9,078 nucleotides of DNA, taken from a bacterium (GTDB taxonomy: Bacteria; CAIJMQ01; JAADFP01). Of this stretch, positions 118 through 9,078 are shown in pieces. The notes under the pieces were generated by a model. That model worked only from the letters and a program-made list of their open reading frames with translations. It was not told the DNA's origin and ran no database searches. Location: the NCBI GenBank assembly GCA_027021085.1, contig JALUVB010000149.1, forward strand, positions 1 to 9,078, given 5' to 3'. Every line of letters begins with the position of its first letter. Position 1 is the first letter of the stretch. The position numbers and the translations under genes were made by a program.

Positions 118-2428
118 ACTCAATAACCAGGAGCCTGAAATCATTCGCCGGCACGACAACTTTAACCGAATTGCCTTCCAACACATCCAGGGTGAAATTA
201 TTCTCGATATCCGTGCATTTATTGATCTGTTTCATCCCCAGCTTCTTTAAATCAAAGGTTACCTTGGTTCTTAAGTTTTCCTTGGAAAGATTTGCTACAA
301 CCGCCATCACTTTCCCGCTTGGTTTTCGGTACAGGCTTACATATACATCTTTTCCCCTGACCTTTGCCGGAGTGCTTTTCTTGAAATAGGGGTAAAATTC
401 AGCATCCTCGTAGTCGAAGCCGCTATCTATACTATTCCAGATTCTTTTCACTGTATCTACATCTATATAAACCCCCAGGGGATCTACTCCTACATCATGT
501 AGTAGTAACAACGCCATCAATCCCCGGGTATTCTTGGGATTTACATATTTCCTGTATTCTCTGCGTTTGCCAAACTGGGGTATCAATTGCACCGCATATC
601 CCCACTGTTTGCCCATCCATTCTGCCCGAATTTCATCAAGCGAAACCACTTCCAGGTAATTATCTTTAACAGCATTATAGCCTTCACCTACCATAACCAT
701 ATCCGCATATGCATATATGGAAGGTGGTGCGCCAGCTTCACCGTGCAGCCACTGGAACCCACCTCTTTCACCTATGCCATATAGTTTTTTACCCATCGCA
801 TATATATACCTGAAAAAGCGCACCGAATCCTCATAACTGAAATCAAGCGCCCCTTTATCTCCATGACCATGATAGGGATTACGGCACCCGCTGGAAAATA
901 CACCATCCCAGAAATATCCGTGAATATTGTACTCTTTCATTTGCTTCACAAGTAACCAGGCATAATATTTATTAAAATCTGAGCCCATACAGGGTCGCAT
1001 CATGGGAACATCATAGGGCCATCCTTTTCTTTTTGTTACCCACCAGTAGAAATCTTCTCCTCCGTCCCAATGCCACCTCTTGCCGTAAACTTTCCATTCC
1101 GGGATGCGTGAAGGAATCATAAGTTTGGCATATACAGAAGGAGCTGTGTCTGAATCTTTGCTATTTGCCTGCTGAATCAATTTACGCATAAGTGCTTCAT
1201 TTGACCATTCAGGATACCCCGGATATTTATAAACCCCCGGATTCGGGTCCACTACTGTATTTCTCAGCCTTCTGATTTTGCGCACAAAAGGTGGGAGCTT
1301 CTTCACCGGGGTAGCCTGCAGGCCAAAACGGAAATGGAACTGTTTCCCTTTTATGGTCTGCCCCTTTTTCAGGATTTTAAGACGCAAAATAACTTCCTTT
1401 CCGCTGTTTTCCACCTCAATTGAATCTCTGGAGCCGGATAAACTGTTGGGCCACTCCCGGTTGGAATTGATAAACCAGCAGAGACCAATATCGTCATTTC
1501 CCACCAGGAGGAAAGGGGTGAAATATCTCTTTAAAATAAAACCCGGCTTTTCAGGCTTAACAATGGTTTTTGAATCCACCCATAAGCTCCCGCTTCTACT
1601 CACTGTTCTGAGGTAGCGTACAGCTTCGCCACGTATGGGGATTTCAATGGTGATATCATCAATACTGCTCAAATCCCTGCCCTGCAGGGTGATATCCATT
1701 ATCATGATGCCGTCGAATTCCAACGAGGTTACGGTCTTTATGGTCAGGTCATTCTTCTCAATCCCTTTCCCCTTAGTTGACATAACTATCTTTGTTGGTT
1801 TTTTAAGGTCGGTTTTCGCCGCACTGAAGCGGAAGGAAAGCGGCATGCCATCCTGCCTGATTTTAAATACTACCGGGCCAGATAGAACTTCTTTACCCTG
1901 GGTGATTATGGATTGCGGCAAAAGGCCTTTGCCCAGAGTGTATTCTCTTCCCCAGCATACCAGAGTTCTCTCCCCTTTCTGCCTCACAGGTGTCCAGGGA
2001 TAAGGGACCTCTTTTAACTCCATATCAAGACTCCTCCAGGGCGCCTCCAGGTAATATATCTTTTCTTCTCTGCCTGCAACCTCATTATTTCCTACATATG
2101 CCTTAGCCGACAAACGATAAGTGCCTTTTCCGTAAGGGGTTAAATCTATTGTGCCGCTTATTCCTGCCCCGGAAGGATATTTTCTACTGAGAATAGTGGC
2201 TAATTTCCGGTCTTCTCTGCTGTAAAGCTCCATTATTATCCTGGGGTTCTCTTTTGCCTGGGAACGATATGTGATACGATACTTCCAGATTTCTCCGTCT
2301 CCCTGCGCATCCAGGAAAATCCGCAGTGAACGCTGCGGAGGCTGTGAAGCGATTAAAACATTGGCAAAGAGAAGCGCAATCATCCCTGCCACAAGAGAAA
2401 TTATCCTTAATACTTTTATGTTTTTCAT
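116..2428 (-). CDS. Secreted putative glycoside hydrolase, DUF6067/GH123-like
   Basis: A 770-residue protein. Residues 1-28 are a Sec signal peptide (positive MKNIK start, hydrophobic core to about 27). Residues 30-130 look like a beta-sandwich. Residues 130-370 form a second all-beta region with DDIGLCWFINSNREWP near 312-327, a pattern I associate with the N-terminal domain of DUF6067/GH123-type proteins. Residues 430-690 look like a TIM barrel rich in W and Y; GYFWDGVF puts Asp508 (codon 905-907) where a barrel nucleophile or substrate-binding carboxylate is expected, and Glu564 (HGEAG) and Glu582 (VGEGY) are candidate partners. Residues 690-770 form a C-terminal beta-domain (VMAVVANLSKENL) of the kind that closes many GH barrels. 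The start is supported by AAAGGGGG 6 nt upstream, and the ATG overlaps the TGA of the LamG gene by 4 nt. Export to cleave a glycan is inferred; substrate and family are unproven, and it could be a related family without a GH number. Confidence 0.65.
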   Translation of the reverse strand: MKNIKVLRIISLVAGMIALLFANVLIASQPPQRSLRIFLDAQGDGEIWKYRITYRSQAKENPRIIMELYSREDRKLATILSRKYPSGAGISGTIDLTPYGKGTYRLSAKAYVGNNEVAGREEKIYYLEAPWRSLDMELKEVPYPWTPVRQKGERTLVCWGREYTLGKGLLPQSIITQGKEVLSGPVVFKIRQDGMPLSFRFSAAKTDLKKPTKIVMSTKGKGIEKNDLTIKTVTSLEFDGIMIMDITLQGRDLSSIDDITIEIPIRGEAVRYLRTVSRSGSLWVDSKTIVKPEKPGFILKRYFTPFLLVGNDDIGLCWFINSNREWPNSLSGSRDSIEVENSGKEVILRLKILKKGQTIKGKQFHFRFGLQATPVKKLPPFVRKIRRLRNTVVDPNPGVYKYPGYPEWSNEALMRKLIQQANSKDSDTAPSVYAKLMIPSRIPEWKVYGKRWHWDGGEDFYWWVTKRKGWPYDVPMMRPCMGSDFNKYYAWLLVKQMKEYNIHGYFWDGVFSSGCRNPYHGHGDKGALDFSYEDSVRFFRYIYAMGKKLYGIGERGGFQWLHGEAGAPPSIYAYADMVMVGEGYNAVKDNYLEVVSLDEIRAEWMGKQWGYAVQLIPQFGKRREYRKYVNPKNTRGLMALLLLHDVGVDPLGVYIDVDTVKRIWNSIDSGFDYEDAEFYPYFKKSTPAKVRGKDVYVSLYRKPSGKVMAVVANLSKENLRTKVTFDLKKLGMKQINKCTDIENNFTLDVLEGNSVKVVVPANDFRLLVIE
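2425..2428 (-). other. ATGA stop/start overlap coupling two genes
   Basis: The TGA stop of the LamG gene (2427-2425) shares two bases with the ATG (2428-2426) of the putative hydrolase gene. With AAAGGGGG at 2442-2435 inside the LamG coding end, this is a standard translational-coupling arrangement and suggests the two proteins are made in linked amounts. Confidence 0.85.
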
Positions 2429-3231
2429 AAGCTGCCCCCTTTAAGAAATTGTTCTTTACCGCTTTTGAAGTGTTCCTTTATTTCATTACTTCCAAGAGCC
2501 TTTCTGTACAAGGCAATATCCCGCATCTTTCCTGTGAATCTTTTACCCAGCCTGAAGCCTCCAAAATGTAAATTGCCATATCCCCCAGTGTCTATATCAA
2601 AGCCTTTTGCCCTTTCTCCCTTCAGAATGCCATTAACATATATTCTCAGAGTATCTTTTTCCCTCACCCCCACAACATGGTACCACTCTCCCGGTCTTAT
2701 GCTCCCTGCAGGAGTAACAGCCGTGTTGTAATTAGAACGATTTTCCCATATAGTCATGCTCACACTCATGTTTTTGGTTAAATATAACCCGTAGCTTTTA
2801 CCAAAGGGGGAGCTTTTACCCACAATCGGGACAGTGGTGACAGGAATACGGGATACTTTAATCCAGGCCTCCAGGGAAAAATCTCCCGTGCGCATATCAA
2901 AATCATCCCCGTGCCTCCATATTCTGATGTAGTGATTCCCGTAAAAATTATCTGCACTATTGTAAGGCTCCGGGTAGGTGGTATCTTTATAAACCTTTAT
3001 CCCGCTTGTTTTATCTTTGAGGCTCATTTCCATAACTCTTTTGCCTTCATCTGTCCCGGTATAATTATCGCGGAGAGAATTGACAAAAGTACCGTCTTTT
3101 TCATCAAGTTTCCAGTAGCCTACAAGCCCTTTTGTCTGCAGAATCAACTTATCGTACGCTTCTCCCCCAAATAAATGGGAATATGTACCCAATAAAAAAA
3201 TCACCCCCAATAACACTACACTTTTTCTCAT
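2425..3231 (-). CDS. Secreted LamG / concanavalin A-like lectin-fold protein
   Basis: A 268-residue protein from the ATG at 3231. A longer reading from 3252 adds seven residues, but AAGGAGG lies inside that extension, about 10 nt before 3231, so 3231 is the better start. The signal peptide is MRKSVVLLGVIFLLG followed by a short region to about residue 23. The rest is one LamG_3-type jellyroll: GLVGYWKLDE near residue 36, GDFSLEAWIKV near 116, EWYHVVGV near 182, TLRIYVNGILKGE near 194 and GKMRDIALYRKAL near 234. Those are the standard strand signatures of the fold, including the W-Y/H-V-V strand and the YVNG turn. No catalytic acid pair like GH16 EXDXXE is present, so binding of a polysaccharide or glycoprotein is more likely than cleavage. 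It is coupled by a 4-nt overlap to the downstream putative hydrolase and may help target that enzyme; this role is inferred. Confidence 0.85.
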   Translation of the reverse strand: MRKSVVLLGVIFLLGTYSHLFGGEAYDKLILQTKGLVGYWKLDEKDGTFVNSLRDNYTGTDEGKRVMEMSLKDKTSGIKVYKDTTYPEPYNSADNFYGNHYIRIWRHGDDFDMRTGDFSLEAWIKVSRIPVTTVPIVGKSSPFGKSYGLYLTKNMSVSMTIWENRSNYNTAVTPAGSIRPGEWYHVVGVREKDTLRIYVNGILKGERAKGFDIDTGGYGNLHFGGFRLGKRFTGKMRDIALYRKALGSNEIKEHFKSGKEQFLKGGSL

Positions 3232-3240
3232 TCTCGCTTT

Positions 3241-3247
3241 GCCTCCT
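3241..3247 (-). promoter_or_regulatory. Shine-Dalgarno site that decides the LamG gene start
   Basis: GAAGGAGGC on the minus strand lies about 10 nt before the ATG at 3231 and downstream of the alternative ATG at 3252. A ribosome binding here would initiate at 3231, which also places the basic MRK at the front of the signal peptide. Confidence 0.7.
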
Positions 3248-3303
3248 TCCATTAACTGCTGACCTGTAAATTCAATCCATTCATCTCTGCCATAGCATAG
3301 CGC

Positions 3304-4200
3304 CTACTCCGATACATCCTTAAAGGAGAATTCCTTACGCAACCTTTCAGATATACCCTGTAACGCTGTAGCCGTGTTGTAATCATTTCGGTTAATATTC
3401 TCCTTATCCAATAAATAGTTTATCTTCTCTTCCATTAGTCTCACCAACTCTGCCTTATTTTTCAGAGAACTGTCCCTGAGAACTGGTTTTATCTCTGCCA
3501 GATTTTTCTTTGCTTTATCCAGTCTTCTCTCAAACCTCATCATATTAACCTGAGAATCCATCAGAAGATACCTACCCGTCTTTTTCATATTCTGCATCTC
3601 ATCAAAGATTGCAACATCCAGTATGCTCGCTTTTTCTACCTTAACATCGTCAATATAGCCTTCGCCCTGAATTGAAAGAACCAGATTGACTCTCTGAACT
3701 ATGGCTGCAGGCTTATAAAACCCCACATACTCTGTCCAGTTACCCTTCAGCGGGACATTCTTGATAGGAATATTACCCCGGGCACTGGAAGGGGGGAGAA
3801 ATTTCATTGGTTCCCCCGGCTTTCCCCCATACTGGTAAAACAACAGACTCAGAGTCCCTTTACCCTTAGCCCATACACTGCATTTATAGGCACTGTTCTT
3901 CTCCACCGGGCCAAAGGTGGTAATGAGATGTCCACCACCTCCCAATTTAATACTGTACTTCCCCGTATGGGCTATACCTTTTACTACATCCAGTTTACCC
4001 GGATATGCAGGATTAATTCTCCAGAATTTCGGGAAGATAGGAGGAGTGGAAAACTCCCACCCTCTTTCTATAGCTCGTTTGATGGAAGGGGAATCCTGCT
4101 TCGCGGTAATAACTATCTCAAAACTGCCGTTTCTTATTCCTGCCTCAACCGAGGCAAACCCCAGAAATCCCAGTAAAGCCAAAACGATTACAAATCTCAT
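3304..4200 (-). CDS. Secreted NGSFE carbohydrate-binding-like protein with helical tail
   Basis: A 298-residue protein. Residues 1-20 are a clean signal peptide (MRFVIVLALLGFLGF, probable cut after VEA). The mature protein opens with NGSFE (24-28), continues with a GWEF...PPIFPKFWRINP block (47-64), a GGGGH turn (87-91), the strand SVWAKGKGTLSL (108-119), and closes with YIDDVKVE (182-189). This is the pattern of a galactose-binding-like, CBM4/9-like jellyroll, where the terminal IDD often belongs to the metal or core site. Residues 195-298 are charged and alpha-helical, with heptad-like K/E/L spacing. No catalytic domain is present. The whole mature chain matches the N-terminal part of the protein at 6335-9078 (visible residues 10-277), including helical-tail ends YNTATALQGISERL and YNEMIAMTRVLSRL. 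It is probably a non-catalytic binder or scaffold, or a derivative of the large paralogue. GAGGAGGG at 4215-4208 sits 7 nt before the ATG; the gap to the upstream gene is 27 nt. Confidence 0.75.
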   Translation of the reverse strand: MRFVIVLALLGFLGFASVEAGIRNGSFEIVITAKQDSPSIKRAIERGWEFSTPPIFPKFWRINPAYPGKLDVVKGIAHTGKYSIKLGGGGHLITTFGPVEKNSAYKCSVWAKGKGTLSLLFYQYGGKPGEPMKFLPPSSARGNIPIKNVPLKGNWTEYVGFYKPAAIVQRVNLVLSIQGEGYIDDVKVEKASILDVAIFDEMQNMKKTGRYLLMDSQVNMMRFERRLDKAKKNLAEIKPVLRDSSLKNKAELVRLMEEKINYLLDKENINRNDYNTATALQGISERLRKEFSFKDVSE

Positions 4201-4207
4201 ATCTATA

Positions 4208-4215
4208 CCCTCCTC
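4208..4215 (-). promoter_or_regulatory. Strong Shine-Dalgarno site of the stand-alone NGSFE gene
   Basis: GAGGAGGG lies 7 nt before the ATG at 4200, within the 27-nt gap after the upstream stop. It is among the best-matched ribosome sites in the window. An earlier ATG overlapping it ends at a TAG after four codons and is not a usable start. Confidence 0.75.
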
Positions 4216-4227
4216 ATTTTTATACCT

Positions 4228-6249
4228 TTACTCATTCAACCAGGTAAATATATTTTTCATAAGCGGAGACCACCCGTCCCAGTCCCACCAGGCAACCTCG
4301 CCCGGCTTTGCTTCCCCCGTGGGGCTCAGGGTCAGCACCGCCACTCTCCCCTTGCCATACCGTCCCAGGATAAGCACCGGGTGGCCGCCTGCCTGCAATA
4401 CCACCTCTGCCCCCTTCTTGGGTTCTACAAAATGCATCCAGAAAACCCGGGGGGACTGCCTGAAGGAGACTCCTTTCAATACCGGGTGGGAGGAGTTTAC
4501 CGGCTCCAGTCTCCAGGACTTACCCTTGCCAGCCCATTTTAGGTCAAAGGGGCCCGAGAGTTTTACCGGCAGTACTTCAAGAAAACGCGTGTCTTCAAAC
4601 TCACCATTGCCAAATGCATAGGGACCACCGGTTACCAGAAGATTCCCTCCCTGCTCCACATAATCGCAAATCATCTCAAAACCAATATCTCCTATGGCCT
4701 TGTAGTTTACATCGCTCAATACCACGGTGTTGTAGGAGAAAAGCTCGTCATAAGTCCCCGGAAAGGTTTCTACGGCATTCGGAGGACAGTTCGCCCAGGT
4801 GAATTGAGGTGTGTTTCCTTTATGTCTCCAGCCGGCAAGGGCATCGTCTATGTTCAATATCTGGGTGTAAAGGCCAAAAACTACCAGCACCTTGAATCTG
4901 TCCGGAGCCGGCCGGGCAATTCTGGAAAAATCGGGCTTCTCAAATATTTTGTGCTTGCGCGGCTGTTTGCGGAAATAAGCACCGCCTTTTGACCCGGCAA
5001 GCGCCATTCCCTTTGTGGCAAAGGGATTGTATCTCCTATCATACTCTTCCCTGTCACCGGCATAGTAATATTCAAACCGGTCTTCAAAACCATTTCCCCG
5101 CACAACTGCCTTTATCACCACGCCGTCAGCAAGATTCTTCGGCCGCCGGAAGCTGAATTCTTTGCGTACCTTGTCAAACCCGAGCCGGCCTATTTTTATT
5201 GACTTTCTATCTATCTCTTTCTTGCTCCTCCAGCCCACTATCCGAAAATCTGCAGTAACCCCGGAAAGCCTTTTGCTCACCGCTGCAATATCAAAAGCTA
5301 CCTGGATTTTGTTCCCCTTTTCATCCGGACGAATATCTGCCACGATGTTCCTGGAACCGTGCACAATATCTTCAAAGCCCTTGATAGGTTTGACAATATA
5401 ACTGAATTTGAACGACTTGCCCGGCCCTACCGGCACACTTTCCATAAACCATTCCGCGGTCACACCTGAGGTATAAATTTTTTCCAGGTAGTTGTAGTCA
5501 AAGACAAAGAGCATTCCTCTTTTGCTCTGCCGGTCGTTTACTGCTATCCAGCCAGCTACCGGGTCAAGCACCCAGTTGGGGCCGATTGGCTTACCGCCAG
5601 CTTTACTCGGTTCAACTCTTACCACAATTCCCCTGGTGGAAGGCATATACCAGTTGTCATAGTAACGGCTGCCACCCATGTTCAGATTATGCTGAATATA
5701 CGGTGCCACTGAGCGCGATTCCTGGGTGGGATTCTTGATTTCTTCATCAACCACAATTACATCATTATCTGCATTTAGCCAGATGGTTTTCTGTACAATA
5801 AGACCTACTAAATCAGGTGAAGTGGGTATCTTTAAAGATGCTGCTGCTGTCCTGGCTCCTTTACCCCCACCTTTTTCCGGCACTCTTATCCATAGCTGTA
5901 TACCCACCTTCGTTTTACCGTCCCCCACAAGCTTATATTTATAGGGAAGCCACATCAAACCACTCGGCCAGCTGTATTTTGCCCAGTGGTCTATGAACAT
6001 ACCGGAGTAAGGAGTTTTACCGATGATTTCTTCTCCATTGTCAAGAAACCGGAAACTTACACACCTTCCTCCCCGACTTGGCTCAAAAGTAAGTGCTATA
6101 AAAGGATTGGCAATGGTTACGTATGCCTTGCCGGCTCTCATCTCTACCCGGGAGGTAACCTTGCCTGCCGTAGCTGTACCTCCCAGAGCTACGGCCCACA
6201 CAGCTACAGCCATGATAAGAGTAAAATATATCCACGGCTTACTTCTCAT
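4228..6249 (-). CDS. Secreted mutarotase-like beta-sandwich plus glutamine-amidotransferase-like protein
   Basis: A 673-residue protein from the ATG at 6249. A longer reading from 6300 is possible but lacks a ribosome site, whereas AAGGAG lies 6 nt before 6249 and gives the proper signal peptide MRSKPWIYFTLIMAVAVWAV. Residues 30-300 are all-beta and begin with AYVTIANPFIALTFEPSRGG, resembling the galactose-mutarotase-like or hydrolase-associated sandwich fold; YIQHNLNMGG (near 184) may line a pocket. Residues 300-400 look Ig-like. Residues 450-673 resemble the ThuA / PF07090-type class I glutamine amidotransferase-like fold: RFKVLVVFGLY, then LFSYNTVVLSDVNY, YVEQGGNLLVTGG, and YGKGRVAVLTLSP before a C-terminal helix. 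The usual nucleophile-elbow Cys is absent, so amidotransferase chemistry is unlikely; such domains occur as trimerisation or accessory domains in some beta-galactosidases. Function is unknown; a sugar-binding or accessory role in a glycan-degrading operon is inferred. Confidence 0.6.
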   Translation of the reverse strand: MRSKPWIYFTLIMAVAVWAVALGGTATAGKVTSRVEMRAGKAYVTIANPFIALTFEPSRGGRCVSFRFLDNGEEIIGKTPYSGMFIDHWAKYSWPSGLMWLPYKYKLVGDGKTKVGIQLWIRVPEKGGGKGARTAAASLKIPTSPDLVGLIVQKTIWLNADNDVIVVDEEIKNPTQESRSVAPYIQHNLNMGGSRYYDNWYMPSTRGIVVRVEPSKAGGKPIGPNWVLDPVAGWIAVNDRQSKRGMLFVFDYNYLEKIYTSGVTAEWFMESVPVGPGKSFKFSYIVKPIKGFEDIVHGSRNIVADIRPDEKGNKIQVAFDIAAVSKRLSGVTADFRIVGWRSKKEIDRKSIKIGRLGFDKVRKEFSFRRPKNLADGVVIKAVVRGNGFEDRFEYYYAGDREEYDRRYNPFATKGMALAGSKGGAYFRKQPRKHKIFEKPDFSRIARPAPDRFKVLVVFGLYTQILNIDDALAGWRHKGNTPQFTWANCPPNAVETFPGTYDELFSYNTVVLSDVNYKAIGDIGFEMICDYVEQGGNLLVTGGPYAFGNGEFEDTRFLEVLPVKLSGPFDLKWAGKGKSWRLEPVNSSHPVLKGVSFRQSPRVFWMHFVEPKKGAEVVLQAGGHPVLILGRYGKGRVAVLTLSPTGEAKPGEVAWWDWDGWSPLMKNIFTWLNE

Positions 6250-6255
6250 AACCAT

Positions 6256-6261
6256 CTCCTT
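6256..6261 (-). promoter_or_regulatory. Shine-Dalgarno site deciding the start at 6249
   Basis: AAGGAG on the minus strand is 6 nt before the ATG at 6249. The in-frame ATG at 6300 has no comparable site upstream, and starting there would put a charged 17-residue stretch before the signal peptide. The in-frame ATG at 6255 lies directly against the AAGGAG, too close for initiation. The gap between genes is therefore 85 nt, the longest in the window. Confidence 0.75.
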
Positions 6262-6334
6262 ATCTCTAATTTCTCTAATAAGTTTTATCTCTGTATCCAT
6301 GAATTCATCGTATAAGACTTTAAAAATTTCAATA

Positions 6335-9078
6335 CTACCTGGTTTTAACCCGGAAGACTACCATGGTGTAATAACGGAATGAAGGCACCTCCACTGTGGC
6401 TTTACCACCACCTACTTTCGCTTTGAGCACCTTCTGCACCGGCTGTTGCTTCTCCTCGTAGTAGTAGGGACGCAGGGCTTGCACCGTTTGCAGCTTCGCC
6501 GAACCGATATCCGCAGTGATTTTTACCCCTTTAAGCGGCGCCGGCTCGTCCACCCAGTTTATGTCCCATTTCTGCGTGGGAGGAATCCGAACGAGATGGA
6601 TTATCAGGTCGTAGCCGTCATCTCTCTTGCGTTTGTACACCAAACGCTTCCACCAGATCTTCTCCGGCGTTTGCAACTGGATTACTTTAGCTACTTTTTC
6701 TGCTGGTACCACCTTGATATCCCGGGCCCAGAGCAAACGCGAGTAACGCGTCTGGAATTGAAAACCGGGGTCAAAACTCGGCATATCCCAGGTAACCACA
6801 TGGTACTGGGTGGCGATAATCTGCGCCATAAAGTAGTTTATTGTCGGCCAGCCCCATTTTGAAGGACCCGGGTTTTTGCGGTCTATTGGTATCCCGATCC
6901 AGCCTACGACAACATTTGCTCCATATTTTTGCACCAGATAATCCCGGTTTTCAACAAAAGCTCTGAGGGATTTGGCCGGGTATTGGCCCTGGTTTTCTCC
7001 GCCGCGGAATGTATTCTGCCATTCCATAAGGCAGGCTACGTTCTTCCAGTCGGTCAGCGCCCTTATGGCTTCATCGCTTACGTCATTTCCCAGACCACTG
7101 CCAATAAGTGATATATTGCCCCGGCGTCTCTGGTACTCCACTGACTCGTAGGAGAAATTAAACCAGGTGCCGAAATCGGGGTCGTCTCGCTTGAGAATTC
7201 CCTGGTAAATATTTCGGACACGAGCATTAAAGTGCGCAATCTTTCTCTTGTCATCGAAAGGCACAACCGGTTTGCCGTCGTAACCGTATCCTCTGCTCAC
7301 TCCAAATATTCCATCAAAGAATACGCCGTCAAAACCCTGCTCCTTAGCATATTTCTTTATGCATTCTGCCCCGTATGCAACTACATCTTCACGGGCCAGG
7401 TTTGCCGGTACATGCTGCCAGGAGGTGTATGCCCGGTTAAGGTAGGGTTTTTCAGGTTTACGCTTGGGCCCAACTTCAATAGGTGAAGCCAGCTCCATGG
7501 GGTTGGGATACACCCTGTAAACAGGGTCAATGGCAAACTGCCCGTTTTCATCATACAAGACATATTCGGGGTGCTTCCGCACCTCTTCATAACCCATTAT
7601 CCCGCTAAAAGAACGGTTTTGATAAAAGGCCTGTTTTATCCCCTTCTTTTTGAGAAACTCTATTCGCCGTTTGCGTGCCGCCTGGTTTATACGGTAACGC
7701 GCCTGCCCGGAGAGGTAAACTTCGGCATCTGCCACGTGAACGCCAAAATCGGTCGGCTCGCCGGAATGGTAGTGCTGATAATTCTGATACCTGCTACCAC
7801 TTGTAGGCATCAACACCCGCATCCATTCCGCCGCCACCTGGTAGAATTCCTGCCAGCTGTCTATTATTTTTCCCTTTTCATCCACGAAGCGAACCTCAAT
7901 TCCCCGGCCGTAGGTCTCCGGACCCACATTGTAACTGAATCTCCATATCTTCTTTTCACCTGGAGCAATAGCAACGGGTTCCCGTTTAAGCTCGCGCACC
8001 GTGTCCAGGTCAAGGTGCATGAGCGCAACAAGTGTTCCCTTCTCTACCTTATCCGATTTATTCACTATAGTGGCCTTTATGCTTGCTTCATCATTTTCTT
8101 TATAAAGAATACGGTCGGGTTTAATCTCGCTTATGGTAACTGTTCCTGCCCGCGCCGGACGAAAGCCTGGCCTGTGATAGGCCACCGCCTTTTTAATCTC
8201 TACTGCTTTTGCTCTTACCGGCGTCGCCTGCGCAACCTTCTCCCCGCTAAGACGGCTTAATACCCGGGTCATGGCTATCATCTCGTTGTAGTAGGAAACC
8301 TGTATTGCAGTGATACCCTTGGTTAAAACATAAGGGTCAAGCGCTTTTATCTCCTTTCCCAGGGATTCTACCAGTTCCTCATCCAAGCCGGCGGATTTAG
8401 CCCGGAATTTCTTTAAAGCAGTCTTGTATTCTGCCTGCTTTCGGGCAAAGTTCTCATCCGCCTGCACCACATTCATATTCTCGATAAGCGCGCCGGTACT
8501 GTAGAGTTTGGATAGTTCTTCTACCACCATCGCCTCTCCCGGACTTGCGGGGAAAAAGTCTACATCGTCTATGTCTACCGGCTTGGGACCGGTGGCGGAT
8601 AAGACAAGATTGGCAGCGTATACTTTGGGGTCATTGTTCCGGAATAGTGCCCGGTATTGCACCCATTCATTGCTATCTATATTAACCGAGAGTATGGTCT
8701 TGGTACTGATGAACTTTGCCGGAGGACCAGCATAACAGTAAACTCCCGCCCATACCTTACCTTTACCCCGCACCCAGAGAGTTACTTCATACGGCTTGCT
8801 CTTCTCTACTTTTCCGTAACTGGCTACAACATGACCGCCACCCCCAATGCGAAGGAATCGCTGCCCCATGTGTGCACCATTAGTCACCACCTCCAGGGTA
8901 GAGCCTTTCCCCGCCGTACCGGGGTTCACTCCCCATTTCTTGGGGAAGATAATCGGCCGGGGGAATTTCCAGCCCTTTTTCTCATATAGCGCTATTCTCT
9001 TATCTGTCGGGGATAACTTAACAATTCTCTCAAATGAGCCATTGTAGAGGTGGTCACCTGCCCGGGCAGCATAGGTGG
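6335..9078 (-). CDS. Multidomain putative glycoside hydrolase with N-terminal NGSFE domain (5' end outside window)
   Basis: At least 913 codons are visible, from 9076 to a TAG at 6337-6335. The frame is open to the window edge. An internal GTG at 8929 could be mistaken for the start, but the 49 codons before it read on with NGSFE at visible residues 12-16 and GWKFPRPIIFPKKWGVNP, matching the same segment of the protein at 3304-4200; the true start and signal peptide lie beyond 9078. Domains: CBM4/9-like sandwich 10-180 (GGGGH at 78-82, VDIDDVDFFP near 167); helical linker 180-285; Ig-like domain about 310-412, seen before barrels in GH66-type and related enzymes; putative TIM barrel about 413-790; C-terminal beta-domain to 913. 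Barrel motif GFDGVFFDGIFG places Asp588 (codon 7313-7315) as a likely catalytic or substrate-binding acid; Glu685 in LMEWQN is one candidate partner. Best guess is a retaining glycosidase of a GH66/GH36-like clan or an unclassified family. Substrate unknown. Confidence 0.65.
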   Translation of the reverse strand, partial: TYAARAGDHLYNGSFERIVKLSPTDKRIALYEKKGWKFPRPIIFPKKWGVNPGTAGKGSTLEVVTNGAHMGQRFLRIGGGGHVVASYGKVEKSKPYEVTLWVRGKGKVWAGVYCYAGPPAKFISTKTILSVNIDSNEWVQYRALFRNNDPKVYAANLVLSATGPKPVDIDDVDFFPASPGEAMVVEELSKLYSTGALIENMNVVQADENFARKQAEYKTALKKFRAKSAGLDEELVESLGKEIKALDPYVLTKGITAIQVSYYNEMIAMTRVLSRLSGEKVAQATPVRAKAVEIKKAVAYHRPGFRPARAGTVTISEIKPDRILYKENDEASIKATIVNKSDKVEKGTLVALMHLDLDTVRELKREPVAIAPGEKKIWRFSYNVGPETYGRGIEVRFVDEKGKIIDSWQEFYQVAAEWMRVLMPTSGSRYQNYQHYHSGEPTDFGVHVADAEVYLSGQARYRINQAARKRRIEFLKKKGIKQAFYQNRSFSGIMGYEEVRKHPEYVLYDENGQFAIDPVYRVYPNPMELASPIEVGPKRKPEKPYLNRAYTSWQHVPANLAREDVVAYGAECIKKYAKEQGFDGVFFDGIFGVSRGYGYDGKPVVPFDDKRKIAHFNARVRNIYQGILKRDDPDFGTWFNFSYESVEYQRRRGNISLIGSGLGNDVSDEAIRALTDWKNVACLMEWQNTFRGGENQGQYPAKSLRAFVENRDYLVQKYGANVVVGWIGIPIDRKNPGPSKWGWPTINYFMAQIIATQYHVVTWDMPSFDPGFQFQTRYSRLLWARDIKVVPAEKVAKVIQLQTPEKIWWKRLVYKRKRDDGYDLIIHLVRIPPTQKWDINWVDEPAPLKGVKITADIGSAKLQTVQALRPYYYEEKQQPVQKVLKAKVGGGKATVEVPSFRYYTMVVFRVKTR

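Follow-up and report, generated by a model that had tools for sequence, protein, structure and literature searches.

A putative glycan-binding unit, free and fused to a GH66-like enzyme, in a candidate bacterial polysaccharide-degradation locus

A binding unit that occurs both free and built into a neighbouring enzyme is an ordinary arrangement in polysaccharide-digesting bacteria. The locus described here raises the question of what such a free unit does when its jellyroll is followed by a tail of helices. The window, that is, the whole 9,078-nucleotide stretch analysed, corresponds to contig C149 in a draft genome of 1.93 Mb, and it encodes a 298-residue protein corresponding to the front of a large enzyme in the same gene string. 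We read the following features, all on the minus strand.

8240 to 9076, minus: CBM and helical-tail unit at the front of the large enzyme, from sequence match and model; 5' end cut by the contig
6335 to 8161, minus: Ig-like domain, GH66-like barrel and C-terminal beta domain of the large enzyme, from profile and fold searches
4228 to 6300, minus: 690-residue protein with a C-terminal GATase1_like domain (2.6e-18), between enzyme and binder
4201 to 4227, minus: 27-bp gap to the upstream 690-residue gene, containing the ribosome site GAGGAGGG
3304 to 4200, minus: stand-alone CBM and helical-tail protein, 298 residues, ATG start, from ORF reading and codon usage
4141 to 4200, minus: putative signal peptide, residues 1-20 (MRFVIVLALLGFLGFASVEA), read from sequence
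3625 to 4140, minus: CBM-type jellyroll, residues 21-192, from CBM_4_9 (9e-5) and fold search
3304 to 3624, minus: helical tail, residues 193-298, four predicted helices in the AlphaFold model
3304 to 3327, minus: C-terminal SFKDVSE-stop, common to the second stand-alone copy only
2425 to 3252, minus: secreted protein with a single LamG/ConA-like domain (Laminin_G_3, 6.3e-25)
116 to 2428, minus: 770-residue secreted protein with a GH123_N-type match (5e-22)
1 to 102, minus: beginning of the second stand-alone copy (301 residues), of which the rest is on contig C298 (L002:26-931)

The 298-residue frame has the marks of a coding gene. Its codon-usage log-odds are 0.18 per codon in frame versus -0.28 and -0.31 in the other frames, and codon use in frame agrees with that of the neighbouring genes. 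As the sequence-only reading had stated, a strong ribosome site precedes it. This site lies 7 nt from the ATG. The N-terminus is hydrophobic and ends in ASVEA; the signal peptide read by eye from this stretch up to VEA is putative. Neither this protein nor the second stand-alone copy matched a catalytic domain.

We assigned the first domain by fold. With the Pfam model CBM_4_9 (PF02018), the protein scored 23.3 bits (E 9e-5) against a gathering cut-off of 25.9, and the second copy, at 19.0 bits, was likewise under it. In the fold search, the jellyroll was matched to the CBM22 structures 2w5f (Z 12.7, 2.5 Å, 132 residues aligned) and 4xup (Z 12.6, 2.4 Å, 130 aligned), and to the CBM16 structures 2zew and 2zey (Z 12.4), so that matches of the CBM4/16/22 type lay at Z 12.4-12.7 and 2.4-3.7 Å over about 130 residues. 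It thus has its jellyroll in common with CBM4, CBM16 and CBM22 modules (Pfam CBM_4_9; PDB 4xup, 2zew, 2w5f; Z 12-13), whereas its identity to them is 12-18% and its Pfam score lies under the cut-off. From this fold, the domain would be expected to bind the target polysaccharide. The AlphaFold model (mean pLDDT 64.5), made from a three-row alignment, is unreliable over residues 1-70 and has strands up to residue 190.

After the jellyroll, the model predicts four helices (193-208, 220-242, 244-265 and 271-297), with pLDDT of about 73-92 by block over residues 201-290, and as modelled the tail looks more like a small compact bundle than a long coiled coil. No family in Pfam or NCBIfam was found for it; weak matches to I_LWEQ, Phage_capsid_2 and DUF4972 were taken as chance matches to helical sequence. 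In the PDB sequence search, the best match to the whole CBM and tail unit was spectrin (0.026), which we did not accept, and the single match to the tail alone (0.16) was judged meaningless.

The correspondence with the large enzyme, claimed domain for domain in the sequence-only reading, was borne out. A blastp comparison pairs residues 24-290 with 12-279 of the large ORF (6335..9076, minus) at 83/280 identities (30%, 1e-28), and both AlphaFold models have the same order of elements, a jellyroll and then four helices, the CBM being better modelled in the large protein. There the helices span residues 179-193, 203-227, 233-251 and 260-278, after which come a linker modelled with low confidence (279-312) and, from residue 313, an Ig-like domain; the 298-residue protein indeed stops at the very point where the large one enters these parts. 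The contig ends inside the large ORF, so that just a part of the signal peptide of the large protein can be seen. Most of the match between the two comes from the CBM part, and their tails compared alone match weakly (shuffle z=2.7; 5/300 shuffles as good). The tail of the second copy, however, matches that of the 298-residue protein with z=17 and that of the large protein with z=6.8, and common descent of the three tails is therefore reasonably secure. We infer that jellyroll and C-terminal helices are one inherited unit.

Both the sequence profile and the fold search mark the large enzyme as GH66-like, of the dextranase or cycloisomaltooligosaccharide transferase kind. It matched the GH66 structures 3wnk (2.6e-10) and 5axh (2.7e-19), and the fold search aligned 400 residues with 5x7g (Z 19.7, 6.0 Å), covering Ig-like domain, barrel and C-terminal beta domain, with the barrel itself poorly modelled at low pLDDT. 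The Pfam GH66 model is not reached by its sequence, while two of its relatives match. These three domains align with those of GH66 dextranases and cycloisomaltooligosaccharide glucanotransferases, whereas the N-terminal CBM and helix unit was not seen in the GH66 relatives compared. We take the Asp in GFDGVFFDGIFG to lie where the nucleophile could be, in a barrel that is poorly modelled.

The surroundings are those of glycan-active genes. The order on the minus strand is the 690-residue gene, 27 bp, the 298-residue gene, the LamG-domain gene and the 770-residue gene. The low end of C149 overlaps contig C298 by exactly 127 identical bp, from which we read the two as adjacent, the sole assembly inference made here. 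C298 opens with the intact 301-residue protein, laid out as the 298-residue one, and continues with two rhamnosidase-type genes, a DUF3604 gene, an alpha-L-fucosidase and a GH35-type gene. The stand-alone binder, having no catalytic domain, thus lies among neighbours of GH66-like, GH123_N, GH78, GH29 and GH35 types, and the locus holds the CBM and helix unit three times, twice free and once fused to the GH66-like enzyme. The GH66 relative suggests an alpha-glucan substrate, the rhamnosidase and fucosidase genes something else.

Further observations concern the neighbours. The LamG/ConA-like protein (2425-3252) of the same gene string is a possible further non-catalytic binder. The 770-residue GH123_N-type protein has a second homologue in the genome, of 1311 residues (L045 3830-7765; G000:C216). 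A GATase1-like gene, which directly follows the enzyme here, directly precedes a GH66-like enzyme in G404, G396 and G395 (L039, L040 and L041), so the pairing recurs across phyla; homology to the 690-residue protein was read by eye.

SFKD(V/I)SE-stop is the ending of both stand-alone copies but not of the large protein. When the whole genome was searched at DNA level with a degenerate pattern for FKD(V/I)SE-stop, only these two came up, on which ground a general sorting signal was rejected. Selection across homologues, suggested earlier as a check, could be followed in part: since synonymous sites are saturated, we give pS (0.73-0.80) versus pN (0.47-0.60) in place of dN/dS, which indicates constraint on both CBM and tail, and third codon positions are less alike than first and second in both. 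In a nine-row CBM tree, the three copies of this genome group together (84/85), and the 298-residue protein pairs with the enzyme copy (84/86), both with moderate support. GH66-like enzymes in another phylum (G395, G396 and G404) have no CBM-helix unit, which suggests that the enzyme here gained it. With the tree and the ending common to the free copies, the simplest account is that a free binder may have been duplicated and then fused to the enzyme.

We then considered relatives in other genomes. Genomes of the same genus, family and class held no relatives of these genes except a generic CBM match in G006, and the other sampled genomes gave generic CBM matches only. Relatives occur in one other phylum (35 genomes). 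Profile scans of genome contigs returned no matches with the three-row alignment and two loci, both in one MAG, with the CBM alignment; the plasmids searched, and the viral contigs searched with the large protein, gave no match. G405 has three CBM-only stand-alone genes, two of them flanking one 448-residue gene, as well as CBM and TPR proteins, and its CBMs have a conserved stretch, GWxFxxPxxFPxxW, in common with the 298-residue jellyroll. The flanked gene (L042 10220-12884 = L037 7894-10558) is a putative neutral ceramidase gene. Long TPR-type repeats follow a domain of the CBM type at L043 1923-4133, L043 3-1862 and L060 1286-3607 (confirmed with Pfam at the first locus, read by eye at the other two); a test for kinship of our tail with those behind the G405 CBMs was negative (z 0.6-1.2). 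G396 and G399 encode tail-less, CBM-only proteins of 208 and 200 residues, each adjoining a pair of genes of similar size (301/1178 and 321/1193 residues; pairs compared by eye). At these two loci of different genera (L057 and L058), the 301/321-residue, 1178/1193-residue and CBM-only genes are common and their order differs. The stand-alone copy expected in related loci is thus present as CBM-only genes in G396, G399 and G405, but there without the tail, and it is absent from genomes of the same genus and class. Stand-alone CBMs thus recur, while the tail, for which no relatives were found elsewhere, is known from this genome only.

A helical tail behind a jellyroll had been called unusual, which the literature does not support: a CBM with a bundle of three helices behind it has been described in Sas20 domain 1 (Sas20d1) of Ruminococcus bromii (PDB 7RAW, 7RFT)(PMC9112005), and three-helix modules in EndoE and EndoS and FIVAR in NagH belong to glycosidases (PMC8894350). 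In Sas20d1, the ligand sits between beta-sandwich and bundle, and the bundle moves by up to about 8 Å on binding but itself makes no contact with the ligand (PMC9112005). Sas20d1, the nearest described analogue that we found, belongs to a non-catalytic secreted protein, as is proposed for the 298-residue one, with sandwich and helices in similar proportions at residues 34-190 and 191-268 as compared with about 21-192 and 193-298 here. It is CBM26-like whereas our jellyroll is CBM4/16/22-like, its bundle is shorter (three helices against four predicted), and Sas20 carries a second domain and a dockerin, which the 298-residue protein lacks. The agreement is in the order of elements, found in both of our models, with no sequence match to Sas20 at E<=1 in the PDB search; Sas20 was not among the 50 matches listed in the fold search, to which we give no weight either way. 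The EndoE, EndoS and NagH modules are similarly small helical bundles in secreted multi-domain glycosidases, without sequence match to ours, whereas the helices form the C-terminus in the stand-alone copies here.

On balance, the 298-residue protein probably leaves the cell and binds glycan, without catalytic activity of its own, as part of a locus for polysaccharide degradation. The fold, the common architecture, the GH66-like partner, the tight gene spacing and the downstream glycosidase-type genes argue for it, as do the two intact free copies, the constraint, the CBM tree, the stand-alone CBMs in G396/G399 and the Sas20d1 precedent. Counted against it are the CBM match under the Pfam cut-off, the poor model before residue 71 and the absence of these genes from same-genus and same-class genomes. 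The jellyroll of the free binder would hold the target polysaccharide, and the compact bundle may steady or complete the binding unit, as in Sas20d1, or act as a spacer where it lies inside the enzyme. Given two free units and one enzyme-fused unit in the locus, free binder and enzyme would most likely meet on the same polymer without a dedicated protein-protein dock.

A stricter form of this explanation, which we regard as a tentative possibility, makes the tail one wall of the sugar cleft, so that CBM and bundle form the binding unit and loss of the tail abolishes binding. The position of the Sas20d1 ligand between sandwich and mobile bundle, and the constant company of CBM and tail in the three proteins of this genome, agree with it; yet the tail-less relatives in G405, G396 and G399 indicate that the jellyroll can do without a tail, the Sas20d1 bundle does not touch its ligand, and a sequence match to Sas20 is absent.

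It is unlikely that binder and enzyme form a surface complex by tail-to-tail pairing, a model that follows the oligomerisation or docking segment suggested in the sequence-only reading. All three proteins keep the tail, its helices are amphipathic (hydrophobic a/d fractions 0.57-1.0), and the free copies have the C-terminal motif found nowhere else in the genome. The short helices and tight turns of both models, however, look like a small bundle, divergence between binder and enzyme is greater in the tail (dN 1.21) than in the CBM (0.77), and the bundles cited as precedents either serve other purposes or have no role reported for them (PMC8894350, PMC9112005). On the grounds of Sas20d1 and the EndoE, EndoS and NagH helix modules, we favour a compact structural tail over a docking one. 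That the tail is an assembly module of a novel kind, gathering binders and GH66-like enzyme in a surface complex without dockerin or scaffoldin, seems more doubtful again. A truncated duplicate of the enzyme front, decaying or without a role, is very improbable: the gene does match the first third of the enzyme, and close relatives lack it, but its intact frame, own ribosome site, hydrophobic N-terminal stretch and normal codon use, the second intact copy with the same ending, the constraint on CBM and tail, and the distant stand-alone CBMs uphold the earlier view of a functional gene, and the bare GH66-like enzymes of another phylum favour gain by the enzyme.

In this bacterium, a single locus thus has one CBM and helix unit in two forms, free in two putative binders and fused once to the start of a GH66-like enzyme, which adds modestly to what is known of polysaccharide loci. 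Tail association, if it occurs, would provide a simple route to enzyme-binder complexes.
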